From: Eubacterium sp.
GTDB taxonomy: Bacteria > Bacillota > Clostridia > Lachnospirales > Lachnospiraceae
NCBI GenBank assembly: GCA_017433295.1
Contig: JAFRHL010000048.1
Span: 1 to 32,139 of the forward strand
Length of the DNA: 32,139 bases
Direction: 5' to 3'
In this document: positions 4,721 through 19,965 of the stretch, piece by piece
How positions within the stretch are numbered: the stretch's first letter is position 1
How the letters are laid out: each line of letters begins with the position of its first letter
Program-made: the position numbers and the translations under genes
The notes under the pieces: generated by a model
The model's database searches: none
Seen by the model: only the letters and a program-made list of their open reading frames with translations
What the model was told of the DNA's origin: nothing

Positions 4721-6355
4721 ATGTACAACTGTAGAAACTGCGGAGGTAATCTTCGCTTTGATATTCCAACACAAAGGCTGAAATGTCCCTATTGCGACAG
4801 TGATTATGATTGCTATGAGATGGAAGAGTATGCGGGCAGCCCTGCGGAAGAAGACAAAGATTCCTATGATGTAACCGTTTTTTCATGTCCTCAGTGTGGG
4901 GGAGAAATAATCAGCACCGATCAGAGCGTTTCTGAGTTCTGTTCTTACTGCGGTTCCTCTGTGGTTCTTGACACCAGACTGCGCAAGGAGAAACGTCCTG
5001 CGAAGATCATTCCCTTTCAGAAGACTTCTGAAGACTGTGTCAATGCCTACAAGCAGAAGCTCAAAGCCTCCATCTTCGCTCCGGGCATCCTTAAGGACCC
5101 TAAATTTCTGGAAAACTTCAGAGGAATTTACATACCTTACTGGTCCTATGGTTTTACCCATAAAGGAAATGTCTCCCTCACCGCAAAACACGAATACAGG
5201 TCCGGGGATTATGACGTGACGGACTATTATAACGTTACCGGCGATGTGGACGCCAGTTATGACGGACTATGCTTTGACGCATCTTCGTCCTTTGACGATG
5301 CCATCAGCGCTGCCATTGCACCCTTTGACCCGGGCCAGATGAAGGATTTCGTCCCCTCCTATCTTTCCGGTTTTTACGCGGACGTGGCTGATGTGGGTGC
5401 GGAAACATATATGGATGAAGCCAATAACATGGCAAATGAGGAAACGATCCGGGTCATTGAAAGGGATCCGGTTGCCGGAAAATATCCCATCAGCACATCT
5501 TCCGGGACAAAGACCATGAACCAGAATCTGAAAACCAATATCAGAGAACCTGTGGGAGCCATGTTTCCTGTATGGTTCCTTACCTGGCGGGACAGGGACC
5601 GGGTGGCTTACATGACCGTGAACGGACAGACCGGAAAGGTGGCGGCGGACATTCCCATCGATGAACGCAAATATATTTTTGCTGCTCTGCTCTGTGCCGT
5701 GCCCCTGTATTTCCTCCTGAACGCGGTCTTCTCCTTCACTGCCCCCACCGCCCTATTTTTCGCCGGATTATTTTCTCTGGCCTCAGGTATCATTTATTAT
5801 GAGGAAATATCCAGTATTATAAAAAGGGATAACCGGGAGCTTGATAAGGGTTTTCAAAGAAAACAGACTGCCGGCAAAGCTAAGGAAAAGAAAGGGAAAA
5901 AAAAGCAGCAGAAGAAGCAAAATAAAAAGGATACACCCTTCCTTCACCGGGTTATCCATCTCGGTATGATTGCTTCTCTGGTCCTGACATTGATAGCTGC
6001 CTGCGTTATTTACTTTTCAACAGATGATATTTTTGAAACCATCTTCCACCGGGTGACTCTGAACTTCCTGCTTATCTCAGCAGCCTTCATTTTCTGGGAG
6101 ATGACCTTTGATGACAAGGATAAACCGGGCGTAAAATATAAACCGGAGCAGGGAATCGTGGGTTCACAGCTGGCAGTTCTTTTAGCCGCTGTTATCAATA
6201 TCCTTCATCCTGTTTCTGATGTGATCTACTATATCGGAATGATCATTGCCTATGTCGGTATCTTTTCTACTTTGATCAATGTCATTCGAAAGTATAACCT
6301 TCTGATAACAAGACCTATTCCGGAGCTGCACAACCGGGGAAAGGAGGCACCATGA
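4721..6355 (+). CDS. Double zinc-ribbon membrane protein (YdjG-like)
   Basis: 544 residues. Two tandem N-terminal zinc ribbons are visible: Cys4/Cys7/Cys22/Cys25 and Cys56/Cys59/Cys74/Cys77. A soluble region rich in Tyr and Asp follows (about 85-315), then hydrophobic segments at about 320-370 (two), a very basic KEKKGKKKQQKKQNKK linker, and about four more hydrophobic segments to the end. With the next gene, overlapping by ATGA, it resembles the Bacillus subtilis ydjG-ydjH pair, where the zinc-ribbon and TPM proteins act with the SPFH protein YdjI and PspA at the membrane under envelope stress. PspA and YdjI equivalents are not in this window, so that role is inference. AGGAGG precedes the start codon. 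Confidence 0.78.
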   Translation: MYNCRNCGGNLRFDIPTQRLKCPYCDSDYDCYEMEEYAGSPAEEDKDSYDVTVFSCPQCGGEIISTDQSVSEFCSYCGSSVVLDTRLRKEKRPAKIIPFQKTSEDCVNAYKQKLKASIFAPGILKDPKFLENFRGIYIPYWSYGFTHKGNVSLTAKHEYRSGDYDVTDYYNVTGDVDASYDGLCFDASSSFDDAISAAIAPFDPGQMKDFVPSYLSGFYADVADVGAETYMDEANNMANEETIRVIERDPVAGKYPISTSSGTKTMNQNLKTNIREPVGAMFPVWFLTWRDRDRVAYMTVNGQTGKVAADIPIDERKYIFAALLCAVPLYFLLNAVFSFTAPTALFFAGLFSLASGIIYYEEISSIIKRDNRELDKGFQRKQTAGKAKEKKGKKKQQKKQNKKDTPFLHRVIHLGMIASLVLTLIAACVIYFSTDDIFETIFHRVTLNFLLISAAFIFWEMTFDDKDKPGVKYKPEQGIVGSQLAVLLAAVINILHPVSDVIYYIGMIIAYVGIFSTLINVIRKYNLLITRPIPELHNRGKEAP

Positions 6356-7182
6356 TCAGACCATCCTCGATTCTATTACATAAAAATCGGCTTGTCTCCG
6401 CTTTGTTCCTGTTATTGATCTTTCTTATCTGGGGACAGATCGCAGTATCTGCGGCCTCCTCCGGGCTGACCCTTGAAACCGGTGAAGAAGGCTCTGAAAG
6501 GACTTATAAAACAGCCGGCTCTGATTACCGCATTTATTTTAACGATGAAGAGGATCTGCTTTCAGAATCAGAAGAAGAGGACCTGCTCTCTGTAATGGAG
6601 CCCATCACGTCCTACGGAAATGTTGCATTTATGACTACCCGGATCGATCGCAGCGACTATGAAGGCGCCACAGGTGATATTCTTCACCAGCTCTTCGGCA
6701 GTGCCAGCAGTACCATTTTCCTCATCGATATGAATCACCGGCAGCTGATCATATTCAGTGACGGAGATATTTATGATATTATCACCAAAAGCTATGCCAA
6801 TACCATCACAGATAATGTTTATAAAATAGCTAAAAAAGGGAATTATTACGATTGTGCCCGGGAAGTTTACACTGAAATGAATACCCTCCTGTCCGGGAAT
6901 AAGATTGCCCAGCCCATGCGTCATATCACCAACGCCATGCTTTCGGTAATCCTGTCTGCCTTTATCCTCTATTTCATCAGCAGAAAAATCTCCCGGCAGC
7001 AGGCAGCAGAAAGCAGCGATATCATGAGTGTCATCGGCGCCAGCTGTTCATTTACCGGGGACAAACCGGTATTTACCAGAAAGAGCAAAGTATATAATCC
7101 ACACACCAGCGACAGCGGCGGCTCCGGCGGCGGTGGCGGTGGTGGAGGAGGCGGCGGTGGCGGCGGAAGCCACGGTTTCTAA
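6352..7182 (+). CDS. TPM-domain membrane protein with polyglycine tail (YdjH-like)
   Basis: 276 residues. A signal peptide or N-terminal anchor covers about residues 11-35, followed by a TPM-type domain (about 57-185, with YRIYFNDEEDLLSESEEEDL at its start), a transmembrane helix (about 193-210), a short cytosolic part and a C-terminus of about 20 glycines ending SHGF. Glycine-rich tails of this kind are usual in TPM (DUF477) proteins. It overlaps the upstream zinc-ribbon gene by 4 nt, so the two are co-translated and probably form one membrane complex. The biochemical activity is unclear: TPM domains have been called phosphatases in plants but act as assembly factors in bacteria. Confidence 0.82.
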   Translation: MIRPSSILLHKNRLVSALFLLLIFLIWGQIAVSAASSGLTLETGEEGSERTYKTAGSDYRIYFNDEEDLLSESEEEDLLSVMEPITSYGNVAFMTTRIDRSDYEGATGDILHQLFGSASSTIFLIDMNHRQLIIFSDGDIYDIITKSYANTITDNVYKIAKKGNYYDCAREVYTEMNTLLSGNKIAQPMRHITNAMLSVILSAFILYFISRKISRQQAAESSDIMSVIGASCSFTGDKPVFTRKSKVYNPHTSDSGGSGGGGGGGGGGGGGGSHGF

Positions 7183-10356: not shown

Positions 10357-11259
10357 TTATTTCCTGCCTCCGCTTCGTGCTTTCCGCTGTGCCTTCGCCC
10401 CCGCGGAGATCTCGGTGATCTCCTGGGTAATGACAGACTGGCGGACACTGTTGTATTCCACCTGAAGATCTGCCAGGATCTCCTGGGCATTCTTATTGGC
10501 GGAATTCATGGCATTCATTCTGGCATTCTGCTCCGCGGAAAAGCTGTCCACCAGAGCACCATAAATAAAGCCTGCAATATATCCCGGCATAACCTGGTCA
10601 ATAACCTCAGTAACAGAAGGATAAAACTTATAATGGATATCTATCTTGTTCATTTCCTCCTTGGGCGTCATGAACGGCTTTCTCTCAAAGGGAAGCAGCT
10701 TCATCCTCTTGACCGTGGAGGTAAGTTCATTTTCCATGTCACTGTAAATAACCCGGATCTCGTCTACTCTTCCTTCATCATACTCTGTCAGCAGAATTTG
10801 ACTGATCTCCCTGGCCCGGTGCATGGTAGGATTCTGGGCGGTATACAGGAAGGACTGCTCAATGGGAATATTGTGCTTCATGTAATACCGTCTTCCATAC
10901 TCGCCCACCACGTAAAGCTTCATTTTTTTGTGTTTCTGCATCTCCTGGTTGGCCAGTTTGATCACATTATAGTTATAAGAACCGGCCAGCCCCTTGTCCG
11001 CGGTGATTACCAGATAGGCATAGGTCTCCGCCGGCTTTCGCCCGGTCTTGGGATAAAAATAGGCAGAATTCACATCCCCCTCAGTCTGAAAGATCCTTTT
11101 GATCTCATGCTCCTGCATTTCAAAGAAGGGCCTGGTATTATTCAGCTCCTGCTTTGCTTTCTGAAGCTTTGTGGAGGAAATGAGATACATGGCGTTGGTG
11201 ATCTTATGGGTATTCTTTACACTGTTTATTCTGTTTTTGATTCCGGCTATATTAGACAT
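10357..11259 (-). CDS. atpG: F1Fo-ATPase gamma subunit
   Basis: 300 residues, the central shaft. The N-terminal coiled-coil helix (AGIKNRINSVKNTHKITNAM) and the C-terminal helix (MNAMNSANKNAQEILADLQV ... SVITQEITEI) are conserved. The central Rossmann-like part includes the family segment VITADKGLAGSYN. The start codon overlaps the atpA stop region by 8 nt and only a weak ribosome site is present, suggesting translation coupled to atpA. Confidence 0.96.
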   Translation of the reverse strand: MSNIAGIKNRINSVKNTHKITNAMYLISSTKLQKAKQELNNTRPFFEMQEHEIKRIFQTEGDVNSAYFYPKTGRKPAETYAYLVITADKGLAGSYNYNVIKLANQEMQKHKKMKLYVVGEYGRRYYMKHNIPIEQSFLYTAQNPTMHRAREISQILLTEYDEGRVDEIRVIYSDMENELTSTVKRMKLLPFERKPFMTPKEEMNKIDIHYKFYPSVTEVIDQVMPGYIAGFIYGALVDSFSAEQNARMNAMNSANKNAQEILADLQVEYNSVRQSVITQEITEISAGAKAQRKARSGGRK

Positions 11260-13021
11260 TTTCTAACCACTTCTTTTTATAACTTCCGGCAATCTCAACG
11301 ATCCTGCTCTTATCCTCATCCGAAAGAAGGCCGCTGGTATCAATTCTCTCACAAAGGTCTGACGCAGTATGCTCAAAATATGTCAGCAGGTCCCGGCGGA
11401 ACCGGTCGATCTTTACCAGGGGAACCTCCTGCATCACATGGGCGGTTCCTGCCACCAGCAGGATCACCTGCTCATGCAGGCTATAGGGCTGTCCCTGATT
11501 CTGGCGAAGCAAATGCATCAGCCCCTGACCGTAGACTAGCCTCTTCCTGGTACTTTCGTCCAGGTCGTTGGAGAACTGGGTAAAAACCTCCATCTCCCGG
11601 TACTGGGCCAAATCAAGACGGATACTTCCGGTGGCCTTCTTCATGGCCTTTGTCTGGGCCGCCCCGCCTACACGGGATACGGAAAGGCCTACATTGACTG
11701 CAGGCCGCTGCCCCGCAAAGAAAAGGTCCGACTCCAGGAAGATCTGTCCGTCGGTGATGGATATGATATTGGTCGGTATATAGGCAGATACATCTCCTGC
11801 CTGGGTTTCCACGATGGGCAGGGCCGTCAGACTGCCGCCTCCGATCTCATCGGAAAGTCTGGCTGACCTCTCCAGCAATCTGGAGTGAAGATAAAATACA
11901 TCCCCCGGATAGGCCTCCCGTCCCGGGGACCGCTCCAGCAGCAGTGACAGGGCGCGGTAGGCAATGGCATGCTTGGACAGGTCATCATAGACGATCAGCA
12001 CATCCCGGCCCTTACGCATAAAATACTCACCCAGGGCGGTACCCGAATAGGGGGCAATAAACTGCATGGGGGCAGACTCACTGGCCGACGCATTTACCAC
12101 GATGGTATAATCCATGGCTCCCTTTTTCCGCAGGGAAGCCACCAGCTGGGCCACACTGCTGGCCTTCTGCCCGATGGCCACATAAATACATATAACGTCA
12201 TTATTTTTCTGGTTTAAGATGGTGTCAATGGCAATCGCTGTCTTGCCCGTCTGGCGGTCTCCGATGATCAGTTCCCTCTGCCCTCTTCCGATGGGAAACA
12301 TGGAATCAATGCAGAGGATCCCGGTATTCATGGGAGTATCCACAGCCTGTCGCTCAATGATCTCCGGCGCCGCCGCCTCTATGGGCAGGTAATCAGAAGG
12401 AATGATGGGACCCTGTACGTCAATGGGGATTCCCAGGGCATCAATGACCCTTCCCAGGAAGTCTTCCCCCACGGGAACACCGGCAGTCTTCTTGGTTCTG
12501 CGTACCCGGCTTCCCTCCATGATACTCTCTTCGTCTCCGAACAGAATGATACCCACACAATCCGGCCGCAGGTCCTGAACCATACCTCTGATGCCGGATT
12601 CAAAAACGACAATTTCCCCGTAAACTACACTCTCCAGGCCGTCCGCAAAAACGATTCCGTCTCCCACCATGGTTACGGTGCCTTCTTCTTCGGGCAGGGC
12701 GGCAAGTGTCCAGGACTCCAGAGTGTTCTTATATAAAGTGATCAGGTCTGTCCCGCCGGGAGTCTCATCCTCCACGGCTTTCTTCCGGAGCATATCCTTA
12801 AACTGCTGGATACGGCCTTCCCTGGTCCAGTCATAGGTCTCATGGCCGACTGCCAGCCGGAACCCGGATGTGATATCCTCATCATGTACCCAGACCAGCT
12901 CATAATCCTTATGATATCTATTTTTAAGAAAATCCTCAAAGCGTTTCTTTCTTGCCTCATCCGGCGCGGCAGCAGAATACAGGTAGGCTTCCGGCCTTCT
13001 GCCCTCAATCTTATCAGGCAT
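11252..13021 (-). CDS. atpA: F1Fo-ATPase alpha subunit with an N-terminal delta-subunit-like domain
   Basis: 589 residues against about 500 for normal alpha. From about residue 93 the sequence is ordinary alpha: [20 protein letters not shown], P-loop GDRQTGKT (254-261, against about 169 in E. coli), and the Arg-finger region near [10 protein letters not shown]. Residues about 15-78 are extra and match the C-terminal domain of delta (AtpH): YSAAAPDEA, an amphipathic helix, [38 protein letters not shown]. No atpH lies between atpF and atpA. The start at 13021 is chosen because AAAGGGG lies 9 nt upstream; it overlaps the atpF stop by 8 nt. Two further upstream ATGs (13042, 13054) would add up to 11 residues. 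The fusion is read from the sequence; its function is inferred. Confidence 0.95.
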   Translation of the reverse strand: [589 protein letters not shown]

Positions 13022-13514
13022 TCTCTGCACCCCTTTCGGCATTCTTCTCTGCATCCTCTAAAAATGCGTCGTAAAAGCTGTCCGTATCACCATTCACCAG
13101 AAGCTTATCCGCGGCATCGGCAATAATACTGGAAATGTCATCCTTTGCTCCATCCACGATCTCCTTCCGCTTCCGCTGTGCTTCTGTTTCTGCCTTACTG
13201 ATGATCTGCGAAGCCTCTTCCTCGGCCTCTTTCATCTTCTGGCTGCGCAGAGTCTTAAGCTCTTTGGCTGCTTCCTGCTTCTTCTGGCTGATCTCCTCCT
13301 CGAGGCTTCCCAGCTGGGCTTCCCTCTCCTCTTTCAGCCTGCGCGCTTCTTCAAGCGCGCTGTTCTTCTCATCATCCAGCTTCTTATAATGTTCTTCTCT
13401 CTGCTCCATAAACTTCTTTACGGGACCATACAGAAGAAAATACAGGCCTCCGAAGAGGATGATGACATTAAACATATGAATCAAAACCTGTACAAAATCT
13501 ATTCCAAGCGGCAT
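13014..13514 (-). CDS. atpF: F1Fo-ATPase b subunit (peripheral stalk)
   Basis: 166 residues. One N-terminal membrane helix (about 8-28, VLIHMFNVIILFGGLYFLLY) is followed by a long charged coiled coil (about 35-140), then a short acidic tail. Length is normal and no delta-like domain is attached, unlike the mycobacterial b-delta fusion. The ATG at 13514 has AGGAGG 9 nt before it. The stop overlaps the start of atpA. Its C-terminal end would normally bind the delta C-terminal domain, which is here part of alpha. Confidence 0.94.
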   Translation of the reverse strand: MPLGIDFVQVLIHMFNVIILFGGLYFLLYGPVKKFMEQREEHYKKLDDEKNSALEEARRLKEEREAQLGSLEEEISQKKQEAAKELKTLRSQKMKEAEEEASQIISKAETEAQRKRKEIVDGAKDDISSIIADAADKLLVNGDTDSFYDAFLEDAEKNAERGAENA

Positions 13515-15172: not shown

Positions 15173-16954
15173 ATGAAGAAAAGACCTCTTTTAACCAGAA
15201 TCAGATATACAACTGCTTTATTTCTTGCCGGCGTCCTGACGGTTTCTTCCCTCACGGGCTGCCTGAAGAAAAAAGAGAAAAAATCTCTGTCTGACATCAA
15301 GGTGGACACATGCATCGCCGAGACCGGAAGGCTGGAGATCAGCACGGATTATATTGCCACCCTTTCCCCCAATCTGACCGTGGATGTGGTCCCCCTGGCA
15401 GCCGGGACGGTGGAACAGATCCCTGTTAAGGTGGGAGACCGTGTCCGGGAAGGAGATCTTTTATGTCAGCTGGACGATACTTCTGCTGACCTGTCCGTTC
15501 AGTCCGCCAGGGATGCGGTCAAATCCGCCAGGGCCGGAAAGGAAGCCGCCCAAAGTCAGACAGATACCGCAAAGATTCAGGCGGATGCTAATGTAAAGAC
15601 CCTGAAAAAAACATTAAAGACCTATAAATCTTCTCTTGATACTGCTGAAAAGCAGCTGGAGAAGCTTAAAAACTCCAGAAATACCGTTAAGAAGTCCCAG
15701 GCAGCCGCCCAGAAGACCTTGGCGGCCGCAAAAAAGCGTTTTAAAACAGCCCAGCGGCTTCTGGTACAATTTGAAGCATTCCTGAACAACAATCCCGACT
15801 GTAAGACCACTGCCGGGCTTACCGCTGCCGCCACTACGGTATCCTATGTCCCGCAGACCCCTTCCCAGCCTGTGCCTGCCGCTGCTCCGGATAACCCGGC
15901 GGCGGAGAATAACGCGCAGGCCCAGGGAAATAATAACCCGGCGGCAGATAATAATGCGCAGGCCCAGGGGAATAATTACCCGGCGGCGGGCCCTGATTCT
16001 TCCGTCGACGCCGCTGCCTCCCAGGCAAAGCAGAAGCAGGCTCAGGCACTGATGTCTGCTCTGACAGAGGCCGGCCTTACGGTAGAATATCTGAGAACCA
16101 CCGGTTTAGAGGCCTTAAAGGGAGATGCGGAGGACGCCCAGACTGCTTTCACCGGTTCCGGTTCCGGCCTGAGCCAGCTGGACACCAGTATCGCCACTCT
16201 GAAAACCAATATATCCCAGCTTAAAGGGCAGATCTCCGCCACAAAGGACAGTCTGGCCACTGCGGAAAAGCTGGCCGAGGCCGCCTCTGCCGGCAGTGAG
16301 GTATATGATGCCCAGATCGAGGCCGCCAAAACAGGGGTGGAGGCTGCCCAGTACCAGAAGGATCTTTACCGGCTTACCGCACCCATCAACGGTATTGTGG
16401 ATGCCGTCAATGTAAAGGAACATGGCATGGCTTCCCAGGGATTAGCTGCCTTTACCATATCTGAAAAGGACTCCATGATCGCTGCCTTTTATGTGACGGA
16501 GGATGTAAAGAATTTTCTTAAAATCGGGGACCAGGCGGCCCTGATCAGGAAGGAGGACGACGAGCAGGCACAGGACCTGGGCCACATTATCTCCATCGGG
16601 ACAGCCGTGGATCCCCAGAAGGGCTTATTTAAAGTGGAGGCAGAGTTTGTCACCACCGGGCAGAAGGAACTGTCCTCCGGCTCCAGTGTAAAGCTCTCCA
16701 TTGTGAGCAATGCTGTATCCGGCGAGCTTCTGATCCCTTACGATTCTGTATATTATGATGACGGTCAGGCTTATGTATACAAGGTGACCGACGGCAAAGC
16801 CCTGCGGACTGATATAGAAACCGGTCTGTTCAATGAAAAATATATCACTGTCGCTTCCGGTCTTGCGGAAGGTGACTGTATCATTACTACCTGGGCTTCC
16901 GGTCTGAAGGATGGGGCCAAAGTAAAAGTCATGAGTGGGGAGGATAGCAAATGA
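15173..16954 (+). CDS. RND efflux adaptor lipoprotein (HlyD/membrane fusion protein family)
   Basis: 593 residues. A lipoprotein signal peptide ends in SLTGC (Cys30), so the mature protein is lipid-anchored outside the membrane. It contains a lipoyl/barrel half (VDVVPLAAGTVEQIPVKVGD), a long helical hairpin region (about 100-190 and 300-395, rich in Ala, Lys and Gln), the second lipoyl half (LTAPINGIVDAVNVKEHGMA) and C-terminal beta domains (LLIPYDSVYYDDGQAYVYKV). A disordered insert of Pro, Ala, Asn and Gln sits between the coil arms. It overlaps the RND gene by 4 nt. No TolC-type partner exists, as expected for a Gram-positive envelope. Substrate unknown. Confidence 0.9.
   Translation: MKKRPLLTRIRYTTALFLAGVLTVSSLTGCLKKKEKKSLSDIKVDTCIAETGRLEISTDYIATLSPNLTVDVVPLAAGTVEQIPVKVGDRVREGDLLCQLDDTSADLSVQSARDAVKSARAGKEAAQSQTDTAKIQADANVKTLKKTLKTYKSSLDTAEKQLEKLKNSRNTVKKSQAAAQKTLAAAKKRFKTAQRLLVQFEAFLNNNPDCKTTAGLTAAATTVSYVPQTPSQPVPAAAPDNPAAENNAQAQGNNNPAADNNAQAQGNNYPAAGPDSSVDAAASQAKQKQAQALMSALTEAGLTVEYLRTTGLEALKGDAEDAQTAFTGSGSGLSQLDTSIATLKTNISQLKGQISATKDSLATAEKLAEAASAGSEVYDAQIEAAKTGVEAAQYQKDLYRLTAPINGIVDAVNVKEHGMASQGLAAFTISEKDSMIAAFYVTEDVKNFLKIGDQAALIRKEDDEQAQDLGHIISIGTAVDPQKGLFKVEAEFVTTGQKELSSGSSVKLSIVSNAVSGELLIPYDSVYYDDGQAYVYKVTDGKALRTDIETGLFNEKYITVASGLAEGDCIITTWASGLKDGAKVKVMSGEDSK
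15893..15989 (+). repeat. 42-bp tandem repeat inside the adaptor gene (two units plus 13 bp)
   Basis: Units at 15893-15934 and 15935-15976 are near-identical and a partial third unit follows. Each encodes 14 residues (NPAAENNAQAQGNN, then NPAADNNAQAQGNN). This is an in-frame, hydrophilic spacer between the two arms of the adaptor's coiled coil and is a likely site of length variation by slippage. Confidence 0.9.
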
Positions 16955-19900
16955 TTCTCACAAAACTGGTCCTGAAGCGCCCTGTTTCCACGGCACTGGT
17001 GGTCCTGGGCATCCTTGTCTTCGGGGTGATCGCCCTTTTCAGCTTTGATATGGAACTGACCCCTGATATCCAGATGCCCATGATGCTGGTCAATACGGTC
17101 TATCCCGGGGCAGGTCCCGAAAGCATCGAACAGCTTGTCACAAAAAAGATCGAAGACGCCGGCAGCTCCCTGTCCGGCGTTGAACAGGTTCTTTCCTATT
17201 CTTACGATAATTATTCCATGGTGGCATTCACCTATGACTATAACATGGATATGAATGACGCCTACACAGATCTGTCTGCTGCCCTGGATATGCTTAAGCT
17301 GCCTGACGACTGCCAGGATCCTACCATCATGCAGATGGATGTCAATGTCATGAGCACCATGACCATCTCTGTGACCAACGACGGATCTTCGGATATGATG
17401 GCCTATATTGAAAATACCATGGTGCCGGCTCTGGAGGCTGTGCCGGATGTGGCCAGAGTCCAGGTCACCGGCGGACGGGAGAACTATGTCCGGATCCAGC
17501 TGGATGAGAAGAAAATGCAGCAGTACGGCCTCAACATTTCCGGTATCGGTCAGACCATCGGCATGACCCAGTATAATGTCCCTGCCGGGACCATCAGCGG
17601 GGGAAGCCAGGATATCAGTGTCAGCACCAGCTCCAAGTATCTGTCACTGGACGATGTGAGGAATACGGTCCTTACCACATCCCAGGGGTCATTCATCACA
17701 TTGGGCGACGTGGCCGACATCAGCATGGCGGCCAAGGATGCGGAAAGCATAAGCCGTTACAACGGGCAGAATAATGTGAGTGTCAGCGTCACCAAACGGC
17801 AGAGCGGGTCCACCGTCCGGGTATGCCGCAACCTCCGAAAAACCTTAAAAAGGCTGGAATCCGGAGACCCCGGCGTCCTCTTTGATATCAGCTACGATGC
17901 CGGCGGCAGCATCACCGACTCCCTGAAATCCGTGGGGGAGACCCTGATCTTCGGTGTTGTCCTTGCCATGGTTATTCTTTTTATCTTCTTCGGAGACTGG
18001 AGGGCCAGCCTGATCGTCGGCAGCTCCATGCCCCTTTCTGTATTTGCCACCCTGATCTGTATGTACCTGTTCGGATTCAACCTGAATATCATCACCACCG
18101 GAGCTCTGGTTATTGCCATAGGTATGATCGTTGATAACTCCATTGTGGTCATTGAAAGCTGCTTCCGTCTCCGGGAAACCACGGAAAACATTAAGGAAGC
18201 CGCCATACAGGGGGCCGGAACGGTCTCCATGAGTATTTTCGCTTCCACCATCACCACCTGTGTAGTATATCTTCCCCTGTCTCTGATCTCCGGTATGGCG
18301 GGACAGATGTTTTCCCAGCTGGGCATGATCATTGTCTTTGCCATGATCGCCTCTCTGATCATGGCCCTTTGTATCGTACCCCTGCTTTATGTCAAGGTAA
18401 AGCCCGCAGAAAAGACCGATAATCCCGTCAATCATTTTCTGGACAGGGTAAGAGCCCTTTATGGAAGAATGCTCCGCAGGCTTTTGTACCGCAAAAAGAC
18501 CACGATGGCGGTGAGTGTCCTCCTGCTGATCATTTCATTTTTTCTGGCTTCCACTCTGGATTTTGAGCTGATCCCCACCAATTATGACGGCAGCATCACC
18601 ATCACTTCCACCTTCCGGTCGGGAACAAAGCTTTCCGCCATGGGGGAACGGATGAAGGAACTTGAGAAAATGGTTGCCTCGGACGATCATTTTAAGAATT
18701 ACAGCCTGTCCATTTCCCAGAACACTGCCACCCTGACCGCTTATGCCAGGAAACACTGCGGCAGGACCAGTGAAGAAGCTATAAATGAATACTCTGATAA
18801 ACTCTCCGGCATGACTGATGTGGACATCTTTGTCCAGGCTTCCGGAGGCGGCAGTGAGATGATGAGCGGCTATGCCACAGACCTGGTGGATATTGTCCTG
18901 GAAAGTGATGACCTTCAGGCCCTCTCGAAGGCTTCTGACCAGGTGGAGGCCCTGATGCGTAAAACCCCAGGAGTGTTACATGTAAAGTCAGACGCATCGG
19001 CCGCCAAGTCTTCCGCCCATGTGATCATCGATCCTTTAAAAGCCGCCAATGCCGGTCTGTCACCGGCCCAGATCGCGGGAGACCTTTATCAGACTCTGAC
19101 CGGCATGACCGCCGACAGTATGGAAATAGATGGAAAGAATTATGATATTATATTGAGATATCCCAAAGGCACCTACGCAGACCAGAACCAGCTCATGGAT
19201 AAGGTCCTTACGGGCATGACCGGCAGACAGACGGTACTGTCGGATATCGCAGGCCTCAGGATGACCCAGGAACCCCAGATGATCCAGCGCAGCGACGGCA
19301 GGTACCAGCAGACTATATCGGCCACTGTAGACAGTGAGCAGAAAAGTAAGATCAATAAGACAATAGAAAAGAAAGTTAAAAAAATGAAATTCCCCAAAGG
19401 GACCGGCTTAAGCTCTTCCTACATGGATAATATGCGGTCAGAGAATCTTACCGCCATATTCCGGGCCATCCTTTCAGGAATCTTTCTGGTATTTCTTGTG
19501 ATGGCCATGCAGTTTGAATCCTCCAGGTTCTCCCTGATGGTCATGACCTGCATTCCCTTCTCCCTGATCGGCTCCTTCCTTCTGCTTTTTATAACCAGAA
19601 ACAGCCTGAACATGGTTTCCATGATGGGATTTCTGATGCTGATGGGAATCGTGGTAAATAACGGCATTCTGCTGGTGGACACCGCCAATCAGGAAAAAGA
19701 GCATATGGCACTGGCGGACGCCCTGATCCGGGCCGGCACCATCCGTCTCCGTCCTATCCTCATGACCACCCTCACCACCATCCTTGCCATGATCCCCATG
19801 GCCCTTTTCAGCGACAATAAGATGATGAGCGGTATGGCCTTCGTCATCATAGGCGGACTGGTGGCTTCTACCCTCCTCTGCCTCCTGATGATGCCCACCT

Positions 19901-19965
19901 TCTACCTGATCCTTTCGCGTAAAAGGGAGACAGGGGACGGTTCTCTGTCTCCTTCCTCCCGCTAA
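16951..19965 (+). CDS. RND-family efflux transporter permease
   Basis: 1004 residues, proton-driven exporter of the AcrB/HAE superfamily. It has the usual duplicated plan: a membrane helix near residue 12, a large outer loop (about 35-320), six helices including GALVIAIGMIVDNSIVVIES, a second outer loop (about 555-830), and six helices including MLMGIVVNNGILLVDTANQE. The acidic proton-relay aspartate lies in GMIVDNSIVVIE; the second repeat has NN in its place. The start overlaps the adaptor stop (ATGA). The final residues, RETGDGSLSP onward, are encoded by a REP-like palindrome at 19926-19952, so the native C-terminus probably ended near LSRKR. Confidence 0.93.
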   Translation: MILTKLVLKRPVSTALVVLGILVFGVIALFSFDMELTPDIQMPMMLVNTVYPGAGPESIEQLVTKKIEDAGSSLSGVEQVLSYSYDNYSMVAFTYDYNMDMNDAYTDLSAALDMLKLPDDCQDPTIMQMDVNVMSTMTISVTNDGSSDMMAYIENTMVPALEAVPDVARVQVTGGRENYVRIQLDEKKMQQYGLNISGIGQTIGMTQYNVPAGTISGGSQDISVSTSSKYLSLDDVRNTVLTTSQGSFITLGDVADISMAAKDAESISRYNGQNNVSVSVTKRQSGSTVRVCRNLRKTLKRLESGDPGVLFDISYDAGGSITDSLKSVGETLIFGVVLAMVILFIFFGDWRASLIVGSSMPLSVFATLICMYLFGFNLNIITTGALVIAIGMIVDNSIVVIESCFRLRETTENIKEAAIQGAGTVSMSIFASTITTCVVYLPLSLISGMAGQMFSQLGMIIVFAMIASLIMALCIVPLLYVKVKPAEKTDNPVNHFLDRVRALYGRMLRRLLYRKKTTMAVSVLLLIISFFLASTLDFELIPTNYDGSITITSTFRSGTKLSAMGERMKELEKMVASDDHFKNYSLSISQNTATLTAYARKHCGRTSEEAINEYSDKLSGMTDVDIFVQASGGGSEMMSGYATDLVDIVLESDDLQALSKASDQVEALMRKTPGVLHVKSDASAAKSSAHVIIDPLKAANAGLSPAQIAGDLYQTLTGMTADSMEIDGKNYDIILRYPKGTYADQNQLMDKVLTGMTGRQTVLSDIAGLRMTQEPQMIQRSDGRYQQTISATVDSEQKSKINKTIEKKVKKMKFPKGTGLSSSYMDNMRSENLTAIFRAILSGIFLVFLVMAMQFESSRFSLMVMTCIPFSLIGSFLLLFITRNSLNMVSMMGFLMLMGIVVNNGILLVDTANQEKEHMALADALIRAGTIRLRPILMTTLTTILAMIPMALFSDNKMMSGMAFVIIGGLVASTLLCLLMMPTFYLILSRKRETGDGSLSPSSR
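19926..19952 (+). repeat. REP-like palindrome, copy 3 (forward, inside the RND gene)
   Basis: The same 27-bp palindrome as at 945-971, here within the last codons of the RND transporter gene, whose stop codon follows at 19963-19965. It is 22 bp from copy 4, making a closely spaced direct pair. Confidence 0.9.

Follow-up and report, generated by a model that had tools for sequence, protein, structure and literature searches.

Operon organization and the fused α subunit

The window analyzed here, a 32,139-nucleotide stretch of an Eubacterium sp. genome (contig JAFRHL010000048.1 of assembly GCA_017433295.1), carries on its minus strand an operon for an F-type ATP synthase, in which the α subunit (atpA) is fused to a domain of the δ subunit. 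Pfam searches identified α, β, γ, ε, a, b, and c within this one operon, and the gene order is a-c-b-[δ C-terminal domain-α]-γ-β-ε. Neither the list of open reading frames (ORFs) nor the Pfam search of the operon revealed a δ gene between atpF and atpA, and the separate two-domain δ subunit of F-type enzymes is missing from the operon. The first in-frame ATG of atpA sits inside atpF, while the ATG at 13019–13021 overlaps the atpF stop codon. The latter is the likely start, giving a 589-residue α that begins with MPDK and has the Shine-Dalgarno (SD)-like sequence AAAGGGG 8 nucleotides (nt) upstream. The α subunit of the same genome’s other operon has 505 residues. The initial annotation had described an α extended at its N-terminus and no δ gene between atpF and atpA, and both statements hold, with the end of atpF overlapping the α start. 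Among 80 relatives, an SD-like 4-mer precedes the chosen fusion start in 74.

The N-terminal extension is the C-terminal domain of δ

The extension of α is the C-terminal domain of δ, and the capping N-terminal domain is gone. The Pfam OSCP profile (PF00213) matches residues 22–89 with its positions 104–172, i.e. up to the last of 172 positions, and scores 25.6 bits for the whole protein and 30.1 bits for the first 95 residues against a cut-off of 22.3. As the match begins at profile position 104 and the atpF stop codon lies at the α start, the δ N-terminal domain is absent from the fusion, in agreement with the initial annotation. Individual OSCP matches at E ≤ 0.01 were obtained for 52 of 54 aligned full-length proteins, the window protein included. 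A profile of 55 fusion N-termini was searched against the PDB. Its top match is an engineered δ-α chain (9jc1_I, E 3.5e-7), followed by residues 108–176 of Escherichia coli δ (5t4o, E 2.4e-6); the latter alignment is free of gaps, as stated in the initial annotation for the C-terminal domain of E. coli δ.

The fold leads to the same assignment. An AlphaFold2 model of residues 12–124 has a mean predicted local distance difference test score (pLDDT) of 69.2, with blocks of 83–89 over model residues 11–60. Foldseek returned 14 PDB matches of this model at E ≤ 1e-3, all of them ATP synthase chains, which is the structural match to δ that the initial annotation had anticipated. Nine of the 14 are δ, OSCP, or b-δ according to profile search or titles, and the remaining five (6cp3_Y, 6cp6_Y, 9b3j_O, 6tdu_AM, and 7njs_d) we take to be the same subunit. 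From rank 15 on, where E exceeds 1e-3, chains of V-ATPases and ribosomes also appear among the matches. The model of the 589-residue protein (mean pLDDT 73.6) has 9jc1_I as its best PDB match, with 576 alignment columns, an E-value of 2.8e-53, and template modeling (TM) scores of 0.69/0.71. It is hardly conceivable that the extension has nothing to do with δ or remains untranslated: the single-sequence OSCP score is modest, but profile, fold, and the aligned proteins agree on δ, the domain is conserved in 80 loci with the upstream site described above, and it occupies the slot of δ between b and α. A chance match or a wrong start is ruled out by the agreement of profile, fold, and conserved upstream site.

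Table 1. Features of the fusion operon in the window and of the second operon in the same genome
Feature	Position	Strand	Evidence or remark
atpB, subunit a, 294 residues	14052–14936	minus	PF00119, E 1.1e-19
atpE, subunit c, 140 residues	13611–14033	minus	PF00137; N-terminus signal-peptide-like
atpF, subunit b, 166 residues	13014–13514	minus	PF00430, E 1.6e-11; search of own genome
atpA fused to δ C-terminal domain, 600 residues from first ATG	11252–13054	minus	ORF; OSCP and ATP-synt_ab domains; TIGR00962 726.2 bits, cut-off 484.45
δ/OSCP C-terminal domain, residues 22–89 of the 600-residue ORF	12788–12991	minus	PF00213 positions 104–172; AlphaFold2 model and Foldseek
Shine-Dalgarno-like AAAGGGG, within end of atpF	13030–13036	minus	8 nt before ATG 13019–13021
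atpG, γ, 300 residues	10357–11259	minus	PF00231
atpD, β, 463 residues	8965–10356	minus	PF00006, PF02874
atpC, ε, 137 residues	8529–8942	minus	PF02823, PF00401; both ε domains
Second, canonical F-ATPase operon (loci L001, L083, L085)	genome G000, contig C14, about 36945–42495		Separate δ; Na+-type c motif

Three neighboring features of the window were also noted. An HlyD-type adaptor and an AcrB-type RND pump (15173–19965) adjoin the operon on the opposite strand. A TPM-domain protein with a long terminal glycine run is encoded at 6352–7182, and the 544-residue ORF ahead of its gene (4721–6355) has no Pfam match at 0.001.

Distribution of the fusion among relatives

A scan of named records found at least 579 relatives among at least 593 matching stretches, and the best 80 of the 579 were analyzed; as best matches to the fusion query, these 80 loci are biased toward it. 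All 80 have a fused α and the order a-c-b-α-γ-β-ε as far as the contigs extend, and no separate δ ORF was found in their fetched stretches (phmmer with the own genome’s δ, E ≤ 1e-3). Their record titles include Lachnospiraceae, Oscillospiraceae, Neglectibacter, Anaeromassilibacillus, and Mogibacterium, and carriers with culture-collection numbers are Eubacterium ruminantium ATCC 17233 and Flintibacter muris DSM 110149.

The initial annotation had suggested a survey of long α proteins, which extended this picture. In the window’s family, the N-terminal profile matches 106 of 250 genomes at E ≤ 1e-6. The domain lies in an uninterrupted frame of at least 576 residues in 56 of the 250, a count that leaves out the contig-cut G125 and rows with internal stops (e.g. 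G160, G182, and G086) and of which up to 30 frames, those retrieved as loci, were read individually; most other matches are separate δ subunits. The class survey gave matches at E ≤ 1e-10 in 35 of 392 genomes, 31 of them in uninterrupted frames of at least 576 residues. In the phylum survey (398 genomes), the fused frames outside the class are those of G669, G905, G726, and the contig-cut G828.

Two relatives have unusual N-termini. In genome G340 (L184, 6726–8642), a 21-residue unit (MNEMSDNEFRSRVASATNGVA) is tandemly repeated before the δ domain. In G054 (L194, 7156–9492), a 778-residue frame joins b, the δ C-terminal domain, and α, and the operon has no separate b. This triple frame occurs in one of 41 related genomes, and its linker holds an in-frame TTG with AAGG upstream, so a stop codon lost recently or a fault of the assembly could account for it. 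If the frame is real, b and α would be present at 1:1.

Separate δ genes in fusion-bearing genomes

The window’s own genome encodes one full-length, intact δ (C14:40480–40995, E 4.8e-45), which adjoins its own a, c, b, α, and β and thus belongs to the second, canonical operon (Table 1). We then inspected 40 fusion-bearing genomes. These were hand-picked, 15 of them (G034 to G246) for apparent δ loss, and the resulting proportions are not frequencies. A separate full-length δ is present in 12, and in the other 28 none was found besides the fusion at E below 0.01; this count rests on matches under that threshold, those weaker than it (E 0.011 to 2.8) being located in other frames. The fusion carries the C-terminal domain only in 24 of the 28, including G054 with b joined as well, and the full δ in the other four. 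Two of the genomes having no separate δ, G271 and G496, are single-contig and 99% complete. Four of the 28 (G121, G191, G340, and G441) have just three ATP-synt_ab matches at E ≤ 1e-20, i.e. α, β, and one other. Because a V/A-type enzyme would add two such matches, the fusion enzyme appears to be the only rotary ATPase of these four. Outside the class, no separate δ was found in G669, G828, and G726, and G905 has one.

The initial annotation’s statement that there is no separate atpH is therefore correct for the operon but not for the genome. It had regarded an intact atpH elsewhere in the genome as evidence against its proposal; such a gene formally exists, but it belongs to the second operon, and no separate δ was found in 28 of the 40 fusion-bearing genomes, although these are a biased choice. 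These data bear on a hybrid enzyme, in which the δ (or the plain α) of the canonical operon would be used in trans to give a capped head with a single stalk. The own genome could supply both the full δ and the 505-residue α, and 12 of the 40 genomes have a separate δ as well as the fusion. We nevertheless regard a hybrid as quite improbable, given the 28 genomes in which no separate δ was found, the four whose ATP-synt_ab matches do not suffice for a second rotary ATPase, and the fact that the fused C-terminal domain already performs b docking. As a general rule, lending of δ by another operon is ruled out by the same two sets of genomes.

Origin of the fusion

Seven loci encode full δ-α fusions of 669–690 residues (L187, 6593–8614; L188, 6409–8451; L189, 6774–8846; L190, L191, L192, and L193). 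Their OSCP matches start at profile position 10–35, showing that they keep the δ N-terminal domain. In a tree of 59 α cores, from which the δ part was excluded, separate-δ forms are basal and full and C-terminal-only fusions are interleaved. The C-terminal-only state needs eight changes on this tree (bootstrap 7–9). The window α groups with many Lachnospiraceae, Oscillospiraceae, and further Clostridia in one large clade. Approximately unbiased (AU) tests rejected a single clade of C-terminal-only forms (p 0.0022) and likewise one that unites all fusions (p 2.4e-5). A 47-row tree that includes carriers outside the class requires five changes between fused and separate δ and eight for the C-terminal-only state, of which the starred branches force six, and one clade of fusions was again rejected (p 4.8e-39). 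L247 of G669 groups away from the window’s clade, and an independent origin is thus likely for it.

Our reading is that δ and α, which are operon neighbors, would have fused more than once, and that the N-terminal domain was then repeatedly lost. Several features of the trees count against it. The starred branches of the 59-core tree alone force just two changes, and several branches between full and C-terminal-only forms are weak. Four separate-δ forms are nested among fusions in the 47-row tree, so some changes could be re-splitting. The clade groups for the AU tests were defined with a first tree already at hand, and recombination of the N-terminus is possible.

Ion type and the c subunit

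The Na+ motif of subunit c includes Gln and Glu-Thr/Ser. All 30 c ORFs from the family’s canonical operons have the Gln...Glu-Thr pair, while c ORFs of the window’s lineage have Met at the Gln position (77 of 77) and those of full-fusion loci have Ile...Glu-Ala (20 of 21); these counts include repeats of one genome under several loci, the window’s own appearing twice among the 77. Under the ProAD rule (PMC11738941), a site without any Na+ residue is called H+. The residues and this rule together indicate that the window’s genome probably encodes two enzymes, a canonical one for Na+ and a fused one for H+. The genome also encodes an Rnf/NQR-type membrane subunit. For rumen butyrivibrios, one H+ and one Na+ ATP synthase are reported (PMC11026938). 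Outside the class, G669 (L247) and G828 (L250), in which no separate δ was found, have the Na+-type motif Gln...Glu-Ser, and the link between fusion and H+ is thus not general. The signal-peptide-like N-terminus of c recurs in related loci, 73 of 75 c ORFs having a hydrophobic 18-mer and 55 an AxA site.

Number of peripheral stalks

Textbooks describe F-type ATP synthases as having invariably one peripheral stalk and one a subunit. We inspected residues 80–135, from the end of the δ domain to the α barrel, in 81 proteins for internal starts. An in-frame ATG with an SD-like 4-mer is present near the α start in 11 of 81, compared with a mean of 16 (range 0–44) in other α stretches and with the 74 of 80 fusion starts that are preceded by such a 4-mer. 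A shared internal start for plain α was rejected, the count for ATG and 4-mer not being above background. The commonest shared place is residue 127 (24 of 81), which lies inside the barrel and is preceded by glutamate-rich codons. We judge that it is not a real start of plain α, because it follows such codons and would cut into the barrel. As no shared plain-α start was found, every α probably carries the b-binding domain, as had been proposed for each of the three α chains in the initial annotation, and with α3β3 heads this would give three docking domains per head.

Of δ, the fusion keeps only the b-binding C-terminal domain, placed ahead of α. In the proposed working of the enzyme, each F1 head would offer three equivalent docking sites for b2 stalks, because α is present three times per F1. 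The δ N-terminal domain, absent here, would otherwise occupy the threefold axis and allow no more than one stalk per head. The working form would then have b2 stalks in two or three copies, each of them keeping one a subunit in place at the c ring, and more ions would be moved per ATP, allowing synthesis at a low ion gradient or the pumping of many ions per ATP. This proposal follows an engineered enzyme described by Ueno et al. 2025 (PMC12229609). There, the δ N-terminal domain was deleted and the rest fused to α of Bacillus PS3. Three near-identical sites formed, and each stalk was docked by the canonical δ-b2 contact. Gels (sodium dodecyl sulfate-polyacrylamide gel electrophoresis, SDS-PAGE) indicated about two stalks and two a subunits per complex, H+/ATP reached 5.8, and the δ N-terminal domain was concluded to restrict the stalk number to one. 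Since the window protein shares this architecture, two or three b2 stalks appear to be the most likely arrangement, and we consider this, with one a subunit per stalk and a high ion/ATP ratio, to be reasonably probable. The initial annotation had held that stalk attachment must differ in stoichiometry and geometry. Its stoichiometry can indeed change, but the geometry need not, given the canonical contact in the engineered equivalent.

The numbers of stalks and of a subunits, like the ion/ATP ratio, are inferred from the engineered enzyme, and several points weigh against a multi-stalk enzyme. The engineered particles themselves carry 0, 1, 2, and 3 stalks in 15, 51, 26, and 8% of cases by cryo-electron microscopy (cryo-EM), i.e. 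mostly 0 or 1 (15% and 51%), and their pumping activity is below that of the wild type (PMC12229609). The linker between the δ domain and α has low confidence in both AlphaFold2 models. In a full fusion, each head would have three capping domains in competition for its one central site, and the existence of such fusions means that fusion alone does not require several stalks. When GTG and TTG are included, a start with an SD-like 4-mer lies near the α start in 44 of 81 proteins (background mean 31); requiring a 5-mer leaves 18 of 81, where the background has a mean of 4.9 and a maximum of 20.

The last two counts, and the TTG with AAGG upstream in the triple frame of G054, would fit mixed heads, in which internal starts or clipping also yield plain α and one α per head carries the domain. 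We give such heads very little credence, as the count for ATG and 4-mer is under the mean of other α stretches and the most shared place would cut into the barrel. A more serious alternative, though still a less likely one than several stalks, is a streamlined single-stalk enzyme. Although the domain would be present on all three α subunits, no more than one b2-a unit would be assembled, b and a being limiting or clashing, and two domains would stay empty; the fusion would merely save a subunit and make the stalk attachment covalent. The majority of engineered particles with 0 or 1 stalk agrees with this, the full δ-α fusions suggest that fusion can persist without symmetry, and b-δ fusions elsewhere indicate that a link between stalk parts may bring a benefit of its own. 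However, the engineered enzyme did assemble extra stalks, bringing the number to about two per complex on the gels, and it is easier to account for repeated N-terminal loss if the lost domain is in some way a hindrance.

A wider view can be put forward tentatively, and we rate it slightly short of an even chance. F-ATPases with three stalks and three a subunits would be widespread in nature among Clostridia of gut and rumen. They would have arisen on several occasions, first by δ-α fusion and then by recurrent loss of the δ N-terminal domain, which breaks the symmetry. In organisms like that of the window, they would serve as a low-gear proton enzyme beside a conventional sodium enzyme, and the ion/ATP ratio would be set by the number of a subunits too, not by c-ring size alone. 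The relatives that apparently have the fusion as their sole rotary ATPase allow a direct test of the multi-stalk prediction.

Comparison with known systems

N-ATPases likewise have no separate δ, which is absent or fused with b (PMC11738941). Their gene order given there is β-ε-X-X-a-c-(b/δ)-α-γ, different from the a-c-b-α-γ-β-ε order and the 166-residue b of the window. An N-ATPase assignment was rejected, as the window α scores 601.5 bits with TIGR03324 against a cut-off of 750.5 and the β-ε-first order with two extra genes is not present. In the mycobacterial b-δ protein (PMC5709465), δ is also fused to another stalk subunit, there b. In the window, by contrast, the C-terminal half of δ alone is joined to α, which is present in three copies, and b is a separate protein. 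A b-δ fusion was rejected for the window, where the 166-residue b has ATP-synt_B as its sole Pfam match above cut-off.

The initial annotation had considered known δ fusions to be of a different kind, which does not stand: Ueno et al. 2025 (PMC12229609) designed a fusion of the same kind and named natural δ-α fusions as well, in Acidaminococcus fermentans and UniProt entries G4Q3K6 and A0A1I2C5T3, which they regard as likely multi-stalk. No other report of a δ-α fusion was found among the papers listed by searches of the open-licence PubMed Central (PMC) literature, which is no proof of absence. The breadth in Clostridia, whole genomes without a separate δ, full-fusion intermediates, and repeated N-terminal loss were likewise not found in print there. 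The kind is thus known since 2025, from an engineered enzyme and from natural cases in a discussion. The named natural fusions are described as missing the N-terminal domain too. With the engineered PS3 enzyme (PDB 9jc1), the window enzyme shares the δ C-terminal domain at the N-terminus of α, the absence of the δ N-terminal domain, and the lack of a separate δ in the operon. They differ in that the former is hand-made with the ε C-terminal domain removed, whereas the latter is natural and has both ε domains and a signal-peptide-like N-terminus of c. The window enzyme thereby belongs to a family of candidate natural exceptions to the one-stalk rule, and the trees, with their evidence for repeated loss of the capping domain, would provide an independent, evolutionary argument for the design rule that the engineered enzyme suggests.

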